Positions 57,076 to 64,000 of a DNA stretch of 64,000 nt are shown here, in pieces. The stretch spans positions 1-64,000 of the forward strand of contig SXOB01000011.1 in assembly GCA_005776945.1 (NCBI GenBank). The letters are read 5' to 3'. This stretch comes from Pseudomonadota bacterium. GTDB lineage: Bacteria; Myxococcota_A; UBA796; GCA-2862545. The position numbers were made by a program, and so were the translations under genes. Numbering within the stretch: the first letter of the stretch is position 1; each line of letters opens with the position of its first letter. The notes beneath the pieces are model-generated. The model did not search any database and was not told the origin of the DNA. It was given only the letters and a program-made list of their open reading frames with translations.

Positions 57076-57656
57076 GCCGGCTCGTCATCGGCGTCACGGG
57101 TGCGTCGGGCGCTCCGTATGCTGCGCGCCTGTTGCAACGCTTGGCGGGCCGCGCCGACGTTCACGTCGTGCTTTCTCGCAATGCCCGGCTCGTCTGGGTG
57201 GACGAGGTTGGCGTCGACGTCGAGAGTTTCGGCTTCCCCGTCTGGCCCCATGGCGACTTCACGGCGCCCTTCGCGTCGGGCTCGTCGGGGCGCGGGGCGA
57301 TGGTCATCATCCCCTGTTCGTCGGGGGCACTTGGCCGAATTGCAGCCGGCCTGTCCAACGACTTGCTGAGCCGGGCTGCGGAGGTGCATCTCAAAGAGCG
57401 TTGGCCACTCGCGCTTGTGCTTCGCGAATCGCCGCTCTCGCTGGTTGCGTCGCGCAACGTCGTTGCCGTGATTGAGGCTGGTGCCCTGGTTCTGCCGGCA
57501 TCGCCCACATTTTACGGCGCTCCCCAGAGTATGGACGCTTTGCTCGACACGGTCGTCGTCCGAGCCCTCGATGCGGTCGGGATTTCGTTGCCCGACGATG
57601 GCCGATGGACCGGGGAATTGCGGCGCTTCCGCTACGTTCCCGGGGAGGTTGCGTGA
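57072..57656 (+). CDS. UbiX-type flavin prenyltransferase
   Basis: This 194-aa protein makes prenylated FMN, the cofactor of UbiD-type decarboxylases. RLVIGVTGASGAPYAARLLQ at the start, VIIPCSSGALGRIAAGLSND, RWPLALVLRESPLSLVASRN and the C-terminal SPTFYGAPQSMDALLDTVVV are family signatures. In the futalosine route a UbiX-type protein supports decarboxylation after prenylation (the MqnLM step; established knowledge). No UbiD-type partner is in the window. ATGA and GTGA overlaps link it to its neighbours. Confidence 0.92.
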   Translation: MSRLVIGVTGASGAPYAARLLQRLAGRADVHVVLSRNARLVWVDEVGVDVESFGFPVWPHGDFTAPFASGSSGRGAMVIIPCSSGALGRIAAGLSNDLLSRAAEVHLKERWPLALVLRESPLSLVASRNVVAVIEAGALVLPASPTFYGAPQSMDALLDTVVVRALDAVGISLPDDGRWTGELRRFRYVPGEVA

Positions 57657-58765
57657 ACGCGATTTGGTGGATGCCGCGGTGGCAGGACGCCGGTATCGGG
57701 CCGATCGCCGAAAAGGTGCTCGCGTCGGAACGCCTGTCCGAGACCGATGGTGTCGCGCTGTTCAATGTGGCCGACCCCAGCTTGGTCGGCGGATTGGCGA
57801 ATATCGTGCGCGAGCGGCGGCACGGCGACGCGACCTGGTTCAATCGCAACCAACACGTCAACGCGACGAATGTGTGCGAGGCGAGCTGCATCTTTTGCAG
57901 CTTCGCGCGCCTTAAGACGGGCGATCCCGGCGCCTATGCGATGACCATCGACGAAGCCGTCGACCGGGTACGCCGCCACCGCGGGCAGCTCATCACGGAA
58001 GTCCACATCGTCAACGGGCTGAACCCGGATTTGCCATTTTCCTACTACACGGACCTGCTGCGGGCGATCAAGGTCGAACGCCCAGACATCCACATCAAGG
58101 GATTCACCGCGGTCGAAATTGCCTGGTTTGCTCAGACGTTTGGGCGCACGGTGCGAGGGGTGATCGAAGAGCTGGTTGCCGCGGGCCTCGATTCACTGCC
58201 GGGCGGTGGGGCTGAGATTTTTGCGCCCCGGGCGCGCAAGAAATTGTGCCCTGACAAGGTCGACGGGCCAGGTTGGCTCGATGTCCACAGGACCGCGCAC
58301 CAGATGGGTCTGCGTAGCAACTGCACGATGCTCTACGGGAGCATCGAGACGATGGCGGAGCGGGTCGACCATATGATGGCCCTGCGGGCTCTGCAGGACG
58401 AAACGGGCGGATTTCAGACCTTCATTCCGTTGAAGTACCACAACGAGAACAACCGGCTTTCGAGGCTGATGGAGGCCACGGACGCCGACACGTTGCGCAC
58501 CTACGCCGTGTCCCGCCTGATGCTCGACAACATTGGCCACATCAAGGCGTACTGGCCGATGGTCGGCCTCTCGATGGCGCAGCTCCTTCTCGAGTACGGC
58601 GTAGACGATCTCGACGGCACGGTGCGCGAGGAACGGATTTACCACATGGCCGGTGCGTCGACGCCGCAGGAGCTCACCCGGGCCGAATTGGTTGCGCTGA
58701 TTCGGCGCGCTGGGCGCACTCCGGTGGAGCGCGACACGCTTTACGGCGTGGCTGCAGAGGCCTGA
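57653..58765 (+). CDS. mqnE: aminofutalosine synthase (radical SAM)
   Basis: This 370-aa enzyme joins the enolpyruvyl product of MqnA to SAM-derived adenosine. Its radical-SAM cluster motif is Cys75-x3-Cys79-x2-Cys82 (NVCEASCIFCSFARL). HIKGFTAVEIAWFAQTFGRT, DSLPGGGAEIFAPRARKKLC and GGFQTFIPLKYHNENNRLSR are typical for MqnE rather than MqnC, as is DLDGTVREERIYHMAGA near the end. It starts with GTG in the ubiX-type stop and overlaps mqnA by TGATG. Confidence 0.93.
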   Translation: MNAIWWMPRWQDAGIGPIAEKVLASERLSETDGVALFNVADPSLVGGLANIVRERRHGDATWFNRNQHVNATNVCEASCIFCSFARLKTGDPGAYAMTIDEAVDRVRRHRGQLITEVHIVNGLNPDLPFSYYTDLLRAIKVERPDIHIKGFTAVEIAWFAQTFGRTVRGVIEELVAAGLDSLPGGGAEIFAPRARKKLCPDKVDGPGWLDVHRTAHQMGLRSNCTMLYGSIETMAERVDHMMALRALQDETGGFQTFIPLKYHNENNRLSRLMEATDADTLRTYAVSRLMLDNIGHIKAYWPMVGLSMAQLLLEYGVDDLDGTVREERIYHMAGASTPQELTRAELVALIRRAGRTPVERDTLYGVAAEA

Positions 58766-60432
58766 TGCGCCCCAGGGTCGGAACTGTCGGCTACCTGAAT
58801 GCGCGGCCGCTCATTCAGCATTTGGACGCGCGCTTTGTGGACGTCGTGGCCGACACGCCCGCGGGCGTCGCAGACCGGCTGGCGTGCGGCGATGTCGACG
58901 TCGCGCTTGTGCCGGTGGTCGCGGCGCTTGAGCAGGGCGCGTCATTTCTTCCGGGTTGGTGCATCGGGGCGGATGGACCGGTCGACAGCGTCCTTCTGGT
59001 CGCCGAGACGCCGCCGGAGTCGTGGACATGCGTCATTCTCGACGACGCGAGCCGCACCTCCCAGCGGCTCGCGGAGCTCGTGTTGCGCCTGGGTCCTCTG
59101 GCGAAGCGCGTCAGCCCGGATTTGGTCGTCGAGGTGGGCGCGGATCCGGTCGATCGGGCGCGCGGATCGGTCGCTTCGCTCGTCATTGGTGACGCCGCGC
59201 TGGCCTTGCCGCCACGCCTCGCGGAGCGGCACGACCTCGCCGCCCTGTGGAAGGCGTGGACAGGCCTTCCTTTCGTCTTCGCCGCGTGGGCAACCCGTCG
59301 GCCGGTGGACGCCAAGCTCGTTGCGCACCTTCGCGAGGCGGGCGCAGCCGGGGTCTCCGCCGTCGACGACCTTCCGCCAGGGCCCGAGCGCCGGTACCTG
59401 CAGGACCGTATTCGCTATGCCTTCGACGACGCCGCCTTGTGTGGCCTCCGCCGCTTCGCGGCGATGATCGCGGAACACACGAATCACGCCGCGGTTCGCT
59501 TTGTGGAGCCGGCCAAGGTGCCGCGGCCAGGTGTTTCGGCGCGGTGGTTGGAGCGGGCTGAGGCGGGCGAGGACCTTCCCGCCGAAGGGTGGCGCGCGCT
59601 GGCGACCGAGGCCCGAACCTCCGAGCTGACCGCGGCCGCCGACGGCGTGCGGCGGCGCACGGAGGGGGTTGACGCAGCGGTGTCGGCGTCGTTCGCCGTG
59701 GCCTGGGCATCGGGACGCCCGGACCTTGGGGAGCGAGCCGCAGAAGCAGTCTATGGCGGAGCGACGCGGTTTCATCTGCTCGGGGAAGCGGCGCCCGAAG
59801 ATGTGGGCAGGGTCCTGGATGCTGCGCCGAATTTGAGCGTTTGGGTGTCGGCGTCCCACCACTTCGATGCATTGGCCCGCGCTGGCGCCGTCGGACGCCT
59901 CCCGGAGCCCATTGGGTGCGCTTCGCCGTCTGTGCGCCGGCGTTTGGGGGTCGACGCTTGGTCGTCGGAGCTCGCCCGCATTCGGGCGGCGCACGCGGCG
60001 GGTTTGGAGCAAGTGGCACACTGGGTGATCGGCCAGGGCGACGACGTCGAGGACCGCTTGCTGCACCTTGAGGCGATCGCTGCCTGCCCGGACTGGTTTG
60101 CTTCCGCGACGGTGGCATGTGCGGTCGTGGCGGGCCCCGTCGGCGAAGTCGGGAATACGGCCGTAGACCTCGCGCGGTGGACGGCGTTGGCGCGACTTCG
60201 GTGGGCGCGAATCCCTCGATTTGCGGCGGCGCCGACCCCCGAAGGGCTTGGGCTCGCGCAACTCGCGTGCTGGATGGGCTGCAACGACCTCGGGGTGGTG
60301 GTGCTCGAAGGGCCTGTCGAAGGCTGGACGGAGATTCGGGATCGCACGGCCCGGCACCTCGCTGACGTTGGCCGGAGGGCGCTCATTCCCGACGGGGCTG
60401 AGTCGTCGCGGCGGCGGCGGGCGGTCGGGTGA
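58765..60432 (+). CDS. mqnA: MqnA (chorismate dehydratase) fused to a degenerate MqnC-like domain
   Basis: This protein is 555 aa, about twice the usual MqnA length. Residues 1-250 are a complete MqnA: VGTVGYLNARPLIQHL, GDVDVALVPVVAALEQG, GADGPVDSVLLVAE, DDASRTSQRLAELVL, WTGLPFVFAAWA. Residues about 259-520 follow the order of MqnC/MqnE: ARWLERAEAGEDLPAEGWRA, IRAAHAAGLEQVAHWVIGQG, DVEDRLLHLEAIA, and GLGLAQLACWMGCNDLG. Residues 300-384 contain no cysteine, so the radical-SAM CxxxCxxC motif is missing. The first domain should make 3-enolpyruvylbenzoate from chorismate. The second is probably a pseudoenzyme with a structural role (inference). Confidence 0.88.
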   Translation: MRPRVGTVGYLNARPLIQHLDARFVDVVADTPAGVADRLACGDVDVALVPVVAALEQGASFLPGWCIGADGPVDSVLLVAETPPESWTCVILDDASRTSQRLAELVLRLGPLAKRVSPDLVVEVGADPVDRARGSVASLVIGDAALALPPRLAERHDLAALWKAWTGLPFVFAAWATRRPVDAKLVAHLREAGAAGVSAVDDLPPGPERRYLQDRIRYAFDDAALCGLRRFAAMIAEHTNHAAVRFVEPAKVPRPGVSARWLERAEAGEDLPAEGWRALATEARTSELTAAADGVRRRTEGVDAAVSASFAVAWASGRPDLGERAAEAVYGGATRFHLLGEAAPEDVGRVLDAAPNLSVWVSASHHFDALARAGAVGRLPEPIGCASPSVRRRLGVDAWSSELARIRAAHAAGLEQVAHWVIGQGDDVEDRLLHLEAIAACPDWFASATVACAVVAGPVGEVGNTAVDLARWTALARLRWARIPRFAAAPTPEGLGLAQLACWMGCNDLGVVVLEGPVEGWTEIRDRTARHLADVGRRALIPDGAESSRRRRAVG

Positions 60433-61568
60433 TTCGAGCCCGGCTCGGTTGGCTCGGGGATCGCTGGGTCGAAGACGTATTCGTGGCGTGGGACGAGGGC
60501 GGTCGGGTCACCGAGGTTCGCCCAGGGCGTTCGGACGACGGACCTGCTGAGGACGGGCTCGTTCTGCCGGGCCTCGTCAACGCGCACGTTCATCTCGAGC
60601 AGACCGGCCGAAAGGCGCCCGCCGAAACCGGCCTGGCCGGCTGGATTGGCGCGTTGTTGCGAGGTCCCGCGGCCCCCCTGGACGCAGTCGAGTTGGGCAT
60701 CGCGCAGGTCGTCGCATCCGGGACCGCTGTGGTTGGCGACGTTGGCAACGGCGGCGATGCGTGGACGGCCATCGCTGCGGCCGGCCTCGGGGGGGTCGCG
60801 TGGCATGAGGGCCTTGGACGAGGTCGTGGGACGGTCGATGCCGCGGTGGCGGCCGTTGCGCCCGCGGACGACCGGGTGAACGGAGGCCTTTGCCGTCGAC
60901 CAACACCCCACTCGCTCTACAGCACGGCGTTTCCGCTCGCGTCGGCGCTGGCGCGGCCGGGACAGGCGCCGGCCGCGCTCCACTTCCTCGAGGACCCTGC
61001 GGAGCGCCGATTCCTCTCCGGTGGCGATGGGCCGCTGGCCGAGTTGCTGGACGCCCTCGGTGTGGACTGGCGGCCACGCATGGAGGGGCTTGGCGAGCCG
61101 TTGGACGTCCTGCGCGGGCTGGGGCTGTTGGGATCCCACGTCGTGCTGGTCCACGGCGTGGAATTGCTGCCTGAGGAATGGCGCGAGGTGTCGGAATCGG
61201 GCGCGTCGGTCGTGTTGTGTCCGCGCAGCAACCTCGCCATCGGCGGCCGGCTACCGGACGTCCCTTCGGCGCTCGCCGCAGGGGCCCGGCTTGCGTTGGG
61301 CACGGACGGCACGGTTTCGTCGCCCGATCTCGACCTGTGGGGGGACGTTGCGTTGCTTTTGGGACGGTGGCCCCATGTGGACCCGGCCGTGTGGATGACG
61401 GCTGCGACGCTTGGGGGGGCCTACGCACTCCGGCTGGACGCCACCTATGGCGCCCTTCGAGTGGGGGCGCGTCCGGGCGTGTTGTGGGCCGAGGGGGTAC
61501 GCGCGCCGGCCGACATTGGCCGCGTGCCGGCGAGGTCATGGCGGGTCGCTCCTAGGGGGATTGCGTGA
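60429..61568 (+). CDS. amidohydrolase, probable aminofutalosine deaminase
   Basis: This 379-aa cytosolic amidohydrolase has the HxH motif in LPGLVNAHVHLEQTG (His53, His55), a VHGVELLPEEWRE His, VVLCPRSNLAIGG and LALGTDGTVSSPDLDLWGDV with the catalytic Asp. This layout matches cytosine-deaminase/chlorohydrolase-type deaminases such as aminofutalosine deaminase. Its place between mqnA and the prenyltransferase supports conversion of aminofutalosine to futalosine. It starts with GTG in the mqnA stop. Other purine-deaminase activities cannot be excluded. Confidence 0.85.
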   Translation: MIRARLGWLGDRWVEDVFVAWDEGGRVTEVRPGRSDDGPAEDGLVLPGLVNAHVHLEQTGRKAPAETGLAGWIGALLRGPAAPLDAVELGIAQVVASGTAVVGDVGNGGDAWTAIAAAGLGGVAWHEGLGRGRGTVDAAVAAVAPADDRVNGGLCRRPTPHSLYSTAFPLASALARPGQAPAALHFLEDPAERRFLSGGDGPLAELLDALGVDWRPRMEGLGEPLDVLRGLGLLGSHVVLVHGVELLPEEWREVSESGASVVLCPRSNLAIGGRLPDVPSALAAGARLALGTDGTVSSPDLDLWGDVALLLGRWPHVDPAVWMTAATLGGAYALRLDATYGALRVGARPGVLWAEGVRAPADIGRVPARSWRVAPRGIA

Positions 61569-62407
61569 CGTCGCTTGTGGCCTTGGGCCAGATGATCCGT
61601 CTGAGCCATTCCGTCTTTGCCCTTCCGTTCGCGTTGGCGAGCGCGTGGATGGCTTCCGAAGGGCATGCCGTGGGACCCTGGCGGTGGGCAGGCATCGTTG
61701 CCGCGGTCGTGCTCGCGCGTGCGACGGCGATGGCCTTCAATCGCGTCGTCGACCGCGACATCGACGGCCTGAACCCGCGCACAAAGGACCGAGAGATTCC
61801 GTCCGGAAAAATAGGTCTCACGACCGCGGTCGTGTTCACGGCGGCCACGGCCGCGGCCTTCGTCGCCGTCGCCTTTTCGCTTGGGCCTCTCGTCGGCTGG
61901 CTCTCGCCCATCGCCCTCGCTGTGGTGTGGGGCTATTCGTGGACGAAGCGCTTCACGTCATGGTGCCACGCGGTGCTCGGACTCGCCCTGGCCCTCGCAC
62001 CGACCGGCGCGTGGCTGGCCGTGCGGGGCACCTACGACTGGACTCCGTTTTGGATCAGCCTCGCGGTGGCGACGTGGGTAGCTGGCTTCGACATGTTGTA
62101 CAGCACGCAAGACCGGGACTTCGATGCTGGGGCGGGGCTGCACAGTGCACCGGTCAAGCTTGGCCTCGCGCGCACGCTCGCGCTGAGCACGGCCTTGCAT
62201 GTGGGCACGATGGCCTTCCTCGCGGCGGTTGCGTGGGTTTCTCCGCGTGGGCCGGCGTACGCGGTGGGTTGGGTGATCATGGCGGTCGTGCTCGCCTACG
62301 AGCATCACATCGTCCGTCCCGACGACCTGAGTCGGCTGGACAAGGCCTTTTTCGACCTCAATGGCGCCGTCAGTCTTTTGTTCCTTGGCGGTGTGCTGTT
62401 GTCTTGA
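61565..62407 (+). CDS. mqnP: UbiA-family prenyltransferase (MqnP-like)
   Basis: This 280-aa integral membrane enzyme should attach the polyprenyl tail to 1,4-dihydroxy-6-naphthoate. Its two Asp-rich motifs are AFNRVVDRDIDGLNPRTKDR and MLYSTQDRDFDAGAGLHS, separated by the usual transmembrane helices (about eight in total). The start is a GTG overlapping the deaminase stop. Its presence with a polyprenyl-diphosphate synthase and UbiX-type gene supports the MqnP assignment over other UbiA enzymes. Confidence 0.9.
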   Translation: MTSLVALGQMIRLSHSVFALPFALASAWMASEGHAVGPWRWAGIVAAVVLARATAMAFNRVVDRDIDGLNPRTKDREIPSGKIGLTTAVVFTAATAAAFVAVAFSLGPLVGWLSPIALAVVWGYSWTKRFTSWCHAVLGLALALAPTGAWLAVRGTYDWTPFWISLAVATWVAGFDMLYSTQDRDFDAGAGLHSAPVKLGLARTLALSTALHVGTMAFLAAVAWVSPRGPAYAVGWVIMAVVLAYEHHIVRPDDLSRLDKAFFDLNGAVSLLFLGGVLLS

Positions 62408-62816: not shown

Positions 62817-62844
62817 GCGGGTCGTGATCCGTGCCGCTTCGCAG

Positions 62845-62940
62845 GCGGTAGGAAGGGGGGGGCACCCACCAGTGGACAGAGCGCGTCTGCGTCGGCTAGA
62901 CCCGTGCGGCCGGCAACCCGGTCCCCCCCCCCTCCACCGC
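62845..62940 (+). promoter_or_regulatory. long GC inverted repeat in the bufferin leader
   Basis: GCGGTAGGAAGGGGGGGG (62845-62862) can pair with CCCCCCCCCCTCCACCGC (62923-62940), making a stem of roughly 17 bp around a 60-base loop. It ends 19 bases before the bufferin ATG. It could terminate upstream transcription or control the bufferin operon. The G8 and C10 runs are striking and could also be prone to length errors. Confidence 0.5.
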
Positions 62941-62959
62941 TCTACGCGGGAGAAGTTCC

Positions 62960-63454
62960 ATGTCGAAGTCGCTGCAAGGAATCGTCGTCGGTCAGGCCCT
63001 CGCTGGCCTGTTCGCGGGTGCGCTCACGGCATGTGGTCAGTCCCATGAGGCTGCCCCGGAAGCATCGCCCGCAGAGGCCGTTGTCGAGGCCGCGCCCGTC
63101 GCTGCCGCTCCGCCCGCCGAGGCCGCTCAGCCGGCCGCCGTCGTCGCTCATGACTGCAAGGGCCACAACGCCTGTAAGGGCCAGGGTGGCTGCGCCGTCG
63201 AAGGAAAGAACAGCTGTAAGAGCCACAATGAGTGCAAGGGCATGGGTGGCTGCAAGGTCGATGAGGCCACCGCCGCCGCAATGAACGCCGCGGCTGCCTC
63301 GGCCGCGACCGCCGCTCAGCCGGCCGCATTGCCGTCGCACGCCTGCAAGGGCCACAATGAGTGCAAGGGCATGGGCGGCTGTGCCGTCGCCGGCCAGAAC
63401 GAGTGCAAGGGCAAGAATCCTTGCAAGGGCAAGGGCGGCTGCAAGACCGGCTGA
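62960..63454 (+). CDS. bufferin-type RiPP precursor, 12 Cys, with lipobox
   Basis: This 164-aa protein starts at an ATG behind GGGAGAAG. The signal MSKSLQGIVVGQALAGLFAG-ALTAC has a lipobox at Cys25. Four modules of the form C-K-[GS]-[HK]-N-x-C-K-G-x-G-G-C follow, with cysteines at 66/72/78, 86/92/98, 129/135/141 and 149/155/161. Two Ala/Pro-rich linkers separate them. The next gene is an MNIO, the enzyme family that turns such cysteines into thiooxazoles to bind copper (established for bufferins). It matches the 6/12-Cys bufferin type. A role in copper sequestration is inferred; the lipid anchor would be unusual. Confidence 0.85.
   Translation: MSKSLQGIVVGQALAGLFAGALTACGQSHEAAPEASPAEAVVEAAPVAAAPPAEAAQPAAVVAHDCKGHNACKGQGGCAVEGKNSCKSHNECKGMGGCKVDEATAAAMNAAAASAATAAQPAALPSHACKGHNECKGMGGCAVAGQNECKGKNPCKGKGGCKTG
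63222..63378 (+). repeat. direct repeats inside the bufferin gene
   Basis: GCCACAATGAGTGCAAGGGC is found at 63222-63241 but is at offset 129 at 63351-63370, both inside CKxHNECKGMGG modules. A second pair, GCCGCTCAGCCGGCCGC at 63122 and 63311, is offset by 189 bases, the length of the 63-residue unit (linker plus two Cys triplets) that was duplicated. Confidence 0.7.
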
Positions 63455-64000
63455 TGACCCAAAGCCGGCGCGTCTCGCGGTTTGACGTGCCGGACCTTGG
63501 CGTCGGGGTGGGCTTTCGCCTGCCTCACTACCATCGGGTGGTCGACGACCGGCCGCCGATGGATTGGTTTGAGGTCATCTCTGAGAACTTCATGGTGGAC
63601 GGCGGTTCGCCCCTGTGGTGGCTTGAACGGCTGCAGGCGGCGTACCCGGTCGTCCCCCATGGGGTGTCCATGTCGCTTGGGGGCGCCTTCGACGCGACCC
63701 ACCTCGCGCGCCTCAAGCGGCTCGTGGACGCGCTGGATCCGCCTTGGGTGTCGGACCACATTTGCTGGACGGGGTCGGCCCACGCCAACACCCACGACCT
63801 GCTCCCGGTTCCCTATACGCGCGACATGATCGACCGGATGGCGGACCGGATTCGCCGCGTTCAGGACGTACTCGGGCGTCCCTTTGCGGTCGAAAATGCA
63901 AGCAGCTACCTCACGTACCGCGACTCCGTCATGCCGGAGTGGGCCTTCGTCGCGGAGCTGGTCGACCGGGCGGACTGTGGCCTGCTTCTCGACGTGAACA
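63454..64000 (+). CDS. bufB: MNIO family protein (DUF692, BufB-like), 5' part
   Basis: The first 182 residues are visible; the gene runs off the window. The ATG at 63454 overlaps the precursor stop (TGATG). Motifs of multinuclear non-heme-iron oxidative enzymes are in order: LGVGVGFRLPHY, DWFEVISENFM, VVPHGVSMSLGG, PPWVSDHICW, HDLLPVPYT, FAVENASSYLTY and LLLDVN. The His, Glu and Asp residues in them are iron ligands. It should modify the cysteines of the upstream precursor. A BufC-type partner (DUF2063) is expected just beyond the edge. Confidence 0.92.
   Translation, partial: MTQSRRVSRFDVPDLGVGVGFRLPHYHRVVDDRPPMDWFEVISENFMVDGGSPLWWLERLQAAYPVVPHGVSMSLGGAFDATHLARLKRLVDALDPPWVSDHICWTGSAHANTHDLLPVPYTRDMIDRMADRIRRVQDVLGRPFAVENASSYLTYRDSVMPEWAFVAELVDRADCGLLLDVN

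Follow-up and report, generated by a model that had tools for sequence, protein, structure and literature searches.

The end of the window, by which we mean the whole 64,000-nucleotide stretch of DNA analysed, holds a gene for a cysteine-rich precursor followed by the gene of an MNIO maturase (BufB). Reading the contig past the window adds bufC, a DUF2063 gene, so that the gene order bufA-bufB-bufC is present at the locus. The features are listed below.

62948..62953, + strand: likely ribosome-binding site GGGAGA, 6 bases 5' of the ATG, read from the sequence
62960..63454, + strand: bufA2-type precursor gene, 164 aa, 13 Cys (open reading frame and NF050166 match)
62960..63031, + strand: signal peptide, residues 1-24 (MSKSLQGIVVGQALAGLFAGALTA), with the lipobox at its end (sequence and homologues)
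63032..63034, + strand: TGT codon of Cys25, where lipidation and signal peptidase II cleavage are predicted, with Gly at +2 (LTAC lipobox and its conservation)
63035..63154, + strand: Cys-free linker rich in Ala, Pro and Glu, residues 26-65, a plausible tether (sequence)
63155..63253, + strand: 6-Cys block 1, C66-C98 (Cys positions; NF050166 matches two stretches of the precursor)
63254..63343, + strand: Ala-rich linker joining the two Cys blocks, residues 99-128 (sequence)
63344..63442, + strand: 6-Cys block 2, C129-C161 (Cys positions; best NF050166 stretch)
63454..64000, continuing to 64302 past the window, + strand: MNIO maturase gene, BufB (NF050167, PF05114, active-site residues)
64295-65047 (L003 4295-5047), wholly past the window, + strand: bufC (DUF2063), GTG start (PF09836)

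Precursor and operon

The precursor frame runs for 164 codons from the ATG at 62960 to a TGA at 63452-63454. Its cysteines lie at residues 25, 66, 72, 78, 86, 92, 98, 129, 135, 141, 149, 155 and 161, that is, twelve core residues and C25, and ten of the twelve core cysteines are followed by Lys. By inspection and hydropathy the N-terminus is a Sec-type signal, with a weakly charged start and then a hydrophobic stretch up to LTA|C25. The sequence is of low complexity. Two of its stretches match NF050166 (Cu_RiPP_BufA2), with a score of 58.9 bits (E 4e-16), short of the cut-off of 60 by 1.1 bits, and a Pfam search returned sub-threshold matches only. The open reading frame, the Cys blocks and LTAC at residues 22-25 bear out an earlier note, made from the window alone, which had described a 12-Cys bufferin-type precursor with a lipobox at Cys25. 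Folding of the leader RNA (62817-62962) was no better than that of shuffles (z -1.03). Within the bufA2 leader, a G run and a C run at 62850-62945 are able to pair; the fold has z -1.03 against shuffles.

The same note had the precursor gene overlapping the MNIO gene, and the overlap is a single base (TGATG, with the MNIO ATG at 63454). The bufC gene for which it suggested looking beyond 64000 is also there, its start overlapping the end of the MNIO gene (64295 versus 64302). The contig ends at 65186, soon after bufC, and because it stops there a doxX gene further downstream is still possible. The MNIO scores 343 bits against NF050167 (MNIO_BufB, cut-off 310) and 341 bits against PF05114; BufC scores 37.1 bits against PF09836 (DUF2063, cut-off 27.2), and its RRE part gives a weak PqqD-like match (E 0.035). 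Among 83 aligned MNIOs, residues H69, D101, H102, E147, D180, N182, N183, D225, H227, E254 and D256 are invariant. These eleven positions are polar. By eye, the acid of EWD among them aligns with the catalytic base described in PMC13097082; DTH and LDVNN, also among them, we align with third-site residues of HvfB (PMC13419390). Such matches between papers are our own interpretation of short motifs. Position 257, adjoining the EWD acid, is Gly in the window's protein and D, A, G, E or S across the set. Cys-Lys-type MNIOs (BufB2) have Asp at the equivalent site, and PMC13097082 proposes that it faces the Lys of the substrate. A DUF2063 gene also lies 3' of the MNIO gene in L024 and L025, and the operon is present too in a same-genus relative. 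Judged by its sequence, the locus is a Buf2 cluster in which all presumed active-site residues that we checked are intact.

Several observations concern the surroundings. In L024, from the window's genus, a protein with six Cu-binding_MopE (PF11617) matches is encoded at 1671-2876 on the minus strand, two genes upstream of the bufferin operon, and a YjbR-family gene lies 3' of bufC. L024 is titled as a 'Klebsiella pneumoniae' MAG, a title that is evidently wrong, and L081, under the same title, looks doubtful. A weaker second PF05114 match (67 bits) lies at G000:C80:17727-18404 (L002), within an open frame of 695 aa; a Pfam search with this translated stretch, its frame provisional, gave no match. 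Upstream in the window, the gene row at 57605-62407 fits the futalosine menaquinone path (radical SAM CofH/MqnC-type, MqnA-like, amidohydrolase and UbiA proteins), and a PilZ gene stands between this row and the bufferin operon. The MqnA-like protein (58765-60432) has 555 aa, of which Pfam VitK2_biosynth spans residues 4-195 only; for the remaining ~350 aa Pfam gave nothing, and a radical-SAM CxxxCxxC motif is not obvious in them.

Conservation of the lipobox

Residues 22-25, LTAC, form a canonical lipobox that fits [LVI][ASTVI][GAS]C after a hydrophobic stretch and is followed by Gly. We surveyed Buf2-like precursors adjoining MNIO genes, drawn from named genomes, from relatives and from a 235-genome sample of the phylum, and read their N-termini; the signal class of the window's precursor is judged by the lipobox rule together with conservation among these homologues. 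In tallies made by hand from the sequences, the lipobox is kept in 14 of 15 full-length precursors of the window's family. The earlier note had counted homologues with an unconserved Cys25 against its proposal, and the cysteine is found in 27 of the 31 precursors of the order, by the same hand count, though a member of the window's own family, L009 (G008), is without it. The others in the order that have no lipobox are L113 (G056), L152 (G036) and L202 (a second copy, G045). In every lipobox-bearing homologue, the same-genus one included, the N-terminal Cys directly follows A or G; its position varies, from residue 19 to 26 in the order. Almost all Sec-type proteobacterial Buf2 precursors in the survey do not have this Cys. 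The genome encodes Lgt (three copies), LspA (one) and Lnt (one), all above cut-off. Conservation thus marks the predicted lipobox of the window's precursor as real.

Predicted anchoring and export across the lineage

In a quick tree of 73 MNIOs, in which gene transfer is possible, the window's MNIO falls in a Myxococcota clade of 17 rows, 16 of them with lipobox precursors (SH-aLRT 94); a nested 13-row set, with 12 lipobox precursors (SH-aLRT 99), also includes it. Its nearest named neighbours are Labilithrix and 'Myxococcales' MAGs, which points to Myxococcota as the phylum of the host. A predicted lipid anchor is the rule in the window's myxobacterial lineage. Over the whole tree the lipid-anchor label requires at least eight changes, and anchoring has therefore come or gone on several occasions. 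For L009 a loss is the simplest account, because its congener L018 (G017) keeps the lipobox, and the existence within the window's family of a member without one argues that anchoring is not indispensable. The two genomes, G017 and G008, form a natural lipobox-plus and lipobox-minus pair within one genus, in which anchoring becomes testable as a variable.

The signal peptides may hold a further shared element. The motif A[ALMVFI]xG[LIMV] occurs in 22 of 23 precursors of the order, in 5 of 33 other signal peptides and in 28 of 77 other precursors; the rows are related, and the enrichment in the order is only suggestive.

Twin-arginine signals also appear in this group. Nine distinct Buf2-like precursors in our first survey table begin with RRxF (for example NRRDFNKLMLAAAGG), a start typical of Tat signals; their sources are family f7 in the window's class, Planctomycetota, Hydrogenedentota and unnamed MAGs. 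The RR[DEN]F precursors are L106, L112, L123, L190 and L203 in family f7, together with L029, L050, L057, L058, L064 and L065; L190 and L203 are two additions beyond the nine. L057 and L058, both from Planctomycetota, combine the twin-arginine motif with a lipobox. Tat export of the RR[DEN]F precursors is probable from their N-termini and would suit precursors modified in the cytoplasm. The main texts of PMC12452194, PMC12636315 and PMC13097082 make no mention of Tat; in their main texts, published accounts of these precursors speak of Sec only.

We suggest, at slightly less than even odds, that anchoring is the default for Buf2 in this myxobacterial order and that Buf2-like precursors as a whole have changed their export route again and again (Sec with signal peptidase I, Sec with lipid anchor, Tat, or Tat with lipid anchor) under an unchanged maturation machinery. 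Bufferins would then be placed where a copper sink is needed, and the conserved A-x-x-G-L core of the signal peptide might perhaps also be read by BufB and BufC.

Interpretation and relation to described systems

We read the locus as a bufA2-bufB-bufC operon for a Buf2 bufferin and its precursor as a probable lipoprotein, and give this reading a probability of about 0.85. The precursor would be made in the cytoplasm, where BufB and BufC may oxidise some of the twelve core cysteines, mostly in Cys-Lys-Gly contexts and probably to 5-thiooxazoles. Sec would then carry the product over the inner membrane, Lgt would add diacylglycerol to Cys25, LspA would cleave before it, and Lnt would N-acylate it. 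The Cys-rich part would thereby be tethered to the membrane via a flexible linker of ~40 residues and could bind excess copper there. The residue at +2 is Gly and not Asp, which by the E. coli rule makes the outer membrane the likelier address, a rule that may not be the host's. The sequences themselves show the gene order, the family matches, the lipobox with its conservation and the genes for the lipoprotein enzymes, from which point on cysteine modification, export, the lipid anchor, the membrane location and the binding of copper are our inference.

One point against a lipoprotein is that AGA|L, residues 19-22, could also serve as a signal peptidase I site. The precursor would in that case be an ordinary Sec-exported Buf2, cut at AGA|LTAC, with Cys25 as the thirteenth, non-lipidated cysteine of a soluble periplasmic peptide. 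Residues 19-21, AGA, have the AxA form, proteobacterial Buf2 precursors are mostly of the signal peptidase I type, and L009, from the window's family, no longer has the Cys and seems to be of that type as well. Against this, the lipobox homologues do not keep the AxA site (LLAGC, LLLGAC and FAGTVAC, for example) but do keep the Cys after A or G, and a canonical LTAC stands in a genome with Lgt, LspA and Lnt; we regard a soluble product as improbable. Gly257, where Asp has been proposed to contact the substrate Lys, speaks in turn against the bufferin part of our reading. It would suit a lipoprotein with unmodified, metal-binding cysteines that is at most a poor substrate of the MNIO, and PMC12452194 notes orphan precursors that possibly work without modification. 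We nevertheless consider this highly improbable, given the overlapping bufA-bufB-bufC order, the intact active-site residues and the presence of the operon in the same-genus relative.

The role of the product could also differ from copper buffering at the membrane in ways compatible with the lipoprotein anatomy: the main metal or stress might not be copper (another soft metal, for example), or bound copper might be exported in outer-membrane vesicles. In PMC12452194 certain Buf2 domains are connected with MerC fusions and with other metals, and PMC12636315 raises the export of lipidated products in vesicles. Within the window, however, no metal gene adjoins the operon, and the functional precedents consulted for bufferins and oxazolins concern copper, so that we think such a role unlikely.

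Returning to the Buf2 lipoprotein that we favour, the locus resembles Buf2 (Buf_6/12Cys, NF050166; PMC12452194) in its two 6-Cys blocks, CxGxNxCKGxxxC spacing and N-terminal export signal, as well as in the bufABC order, the BufB-type MNIO and the DUF2063 partner. It departs from the Buf2 norm in a score just under the model cut-off, in long Ala/Pro linkers, in blocks that each end in Cys with a short tail, and in that no doxX was seen between bufC and the contig end. The soluble Caulobacter bufferins (Buf1, Buf2) have maturation enzymes of the same families; they are treated, however, as periplasmic peptides without a lipid anchor, and Buf1 belongs to the DUF2282 family. With captophorins, the 5-thiooxazole metallophores under which PMC13097082 groups such products, the locus shares an MNIO and a PME1-type partner and, with their 'Cys-Lys' substrate group, the prevalence of Cys-Lys among its core cysteines (10/12). 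It differs from that group at position 257 of the MNIO, Gly in place of the Asp (BufB2) proposed to contact the substrate Lys. The DAG-RiPP lipo-NedA (PMC12636315) is likewise a precursor modified by an MNIO and a partner that enters the Lgt/LspA/Lnt path, and probably a membrane-held copper binder; it carries EGKCG repeats rather than Buf2 blocks, and its lipidation is measured, whereas that of the window's precursor is predicted.

The earlier note had presented a membrane-fixed bufferin as a departure from those described, and here the literature contradicts it. Antoine et al. 2025 (PMC12452194) report six Cys in 90% of Buf2 precursors and twelve in the remainder, and predict lipoprotein signals in ~16% of Buf2 precursors; Chen et al. 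2025 (PMC12636315) cite the ~16%, demonstrate lipidation for DybA and the oxazolin NedA, and coin the term DAG-RiPP. The two papers rule out the lipid-anchored bufferin as a new kind. The window's precursor is instead a well-supported further example of a predicted lipid-tagged bufferin.

With the idea already in print, what our analysis adds is a lineage in which predicted anchoring is the rule. A lipid-anchored bufferin would place the copper sink on the membrane and not free in the periplasm, which may alter the protection of membrane proteins or the exit of copper in vesicles.
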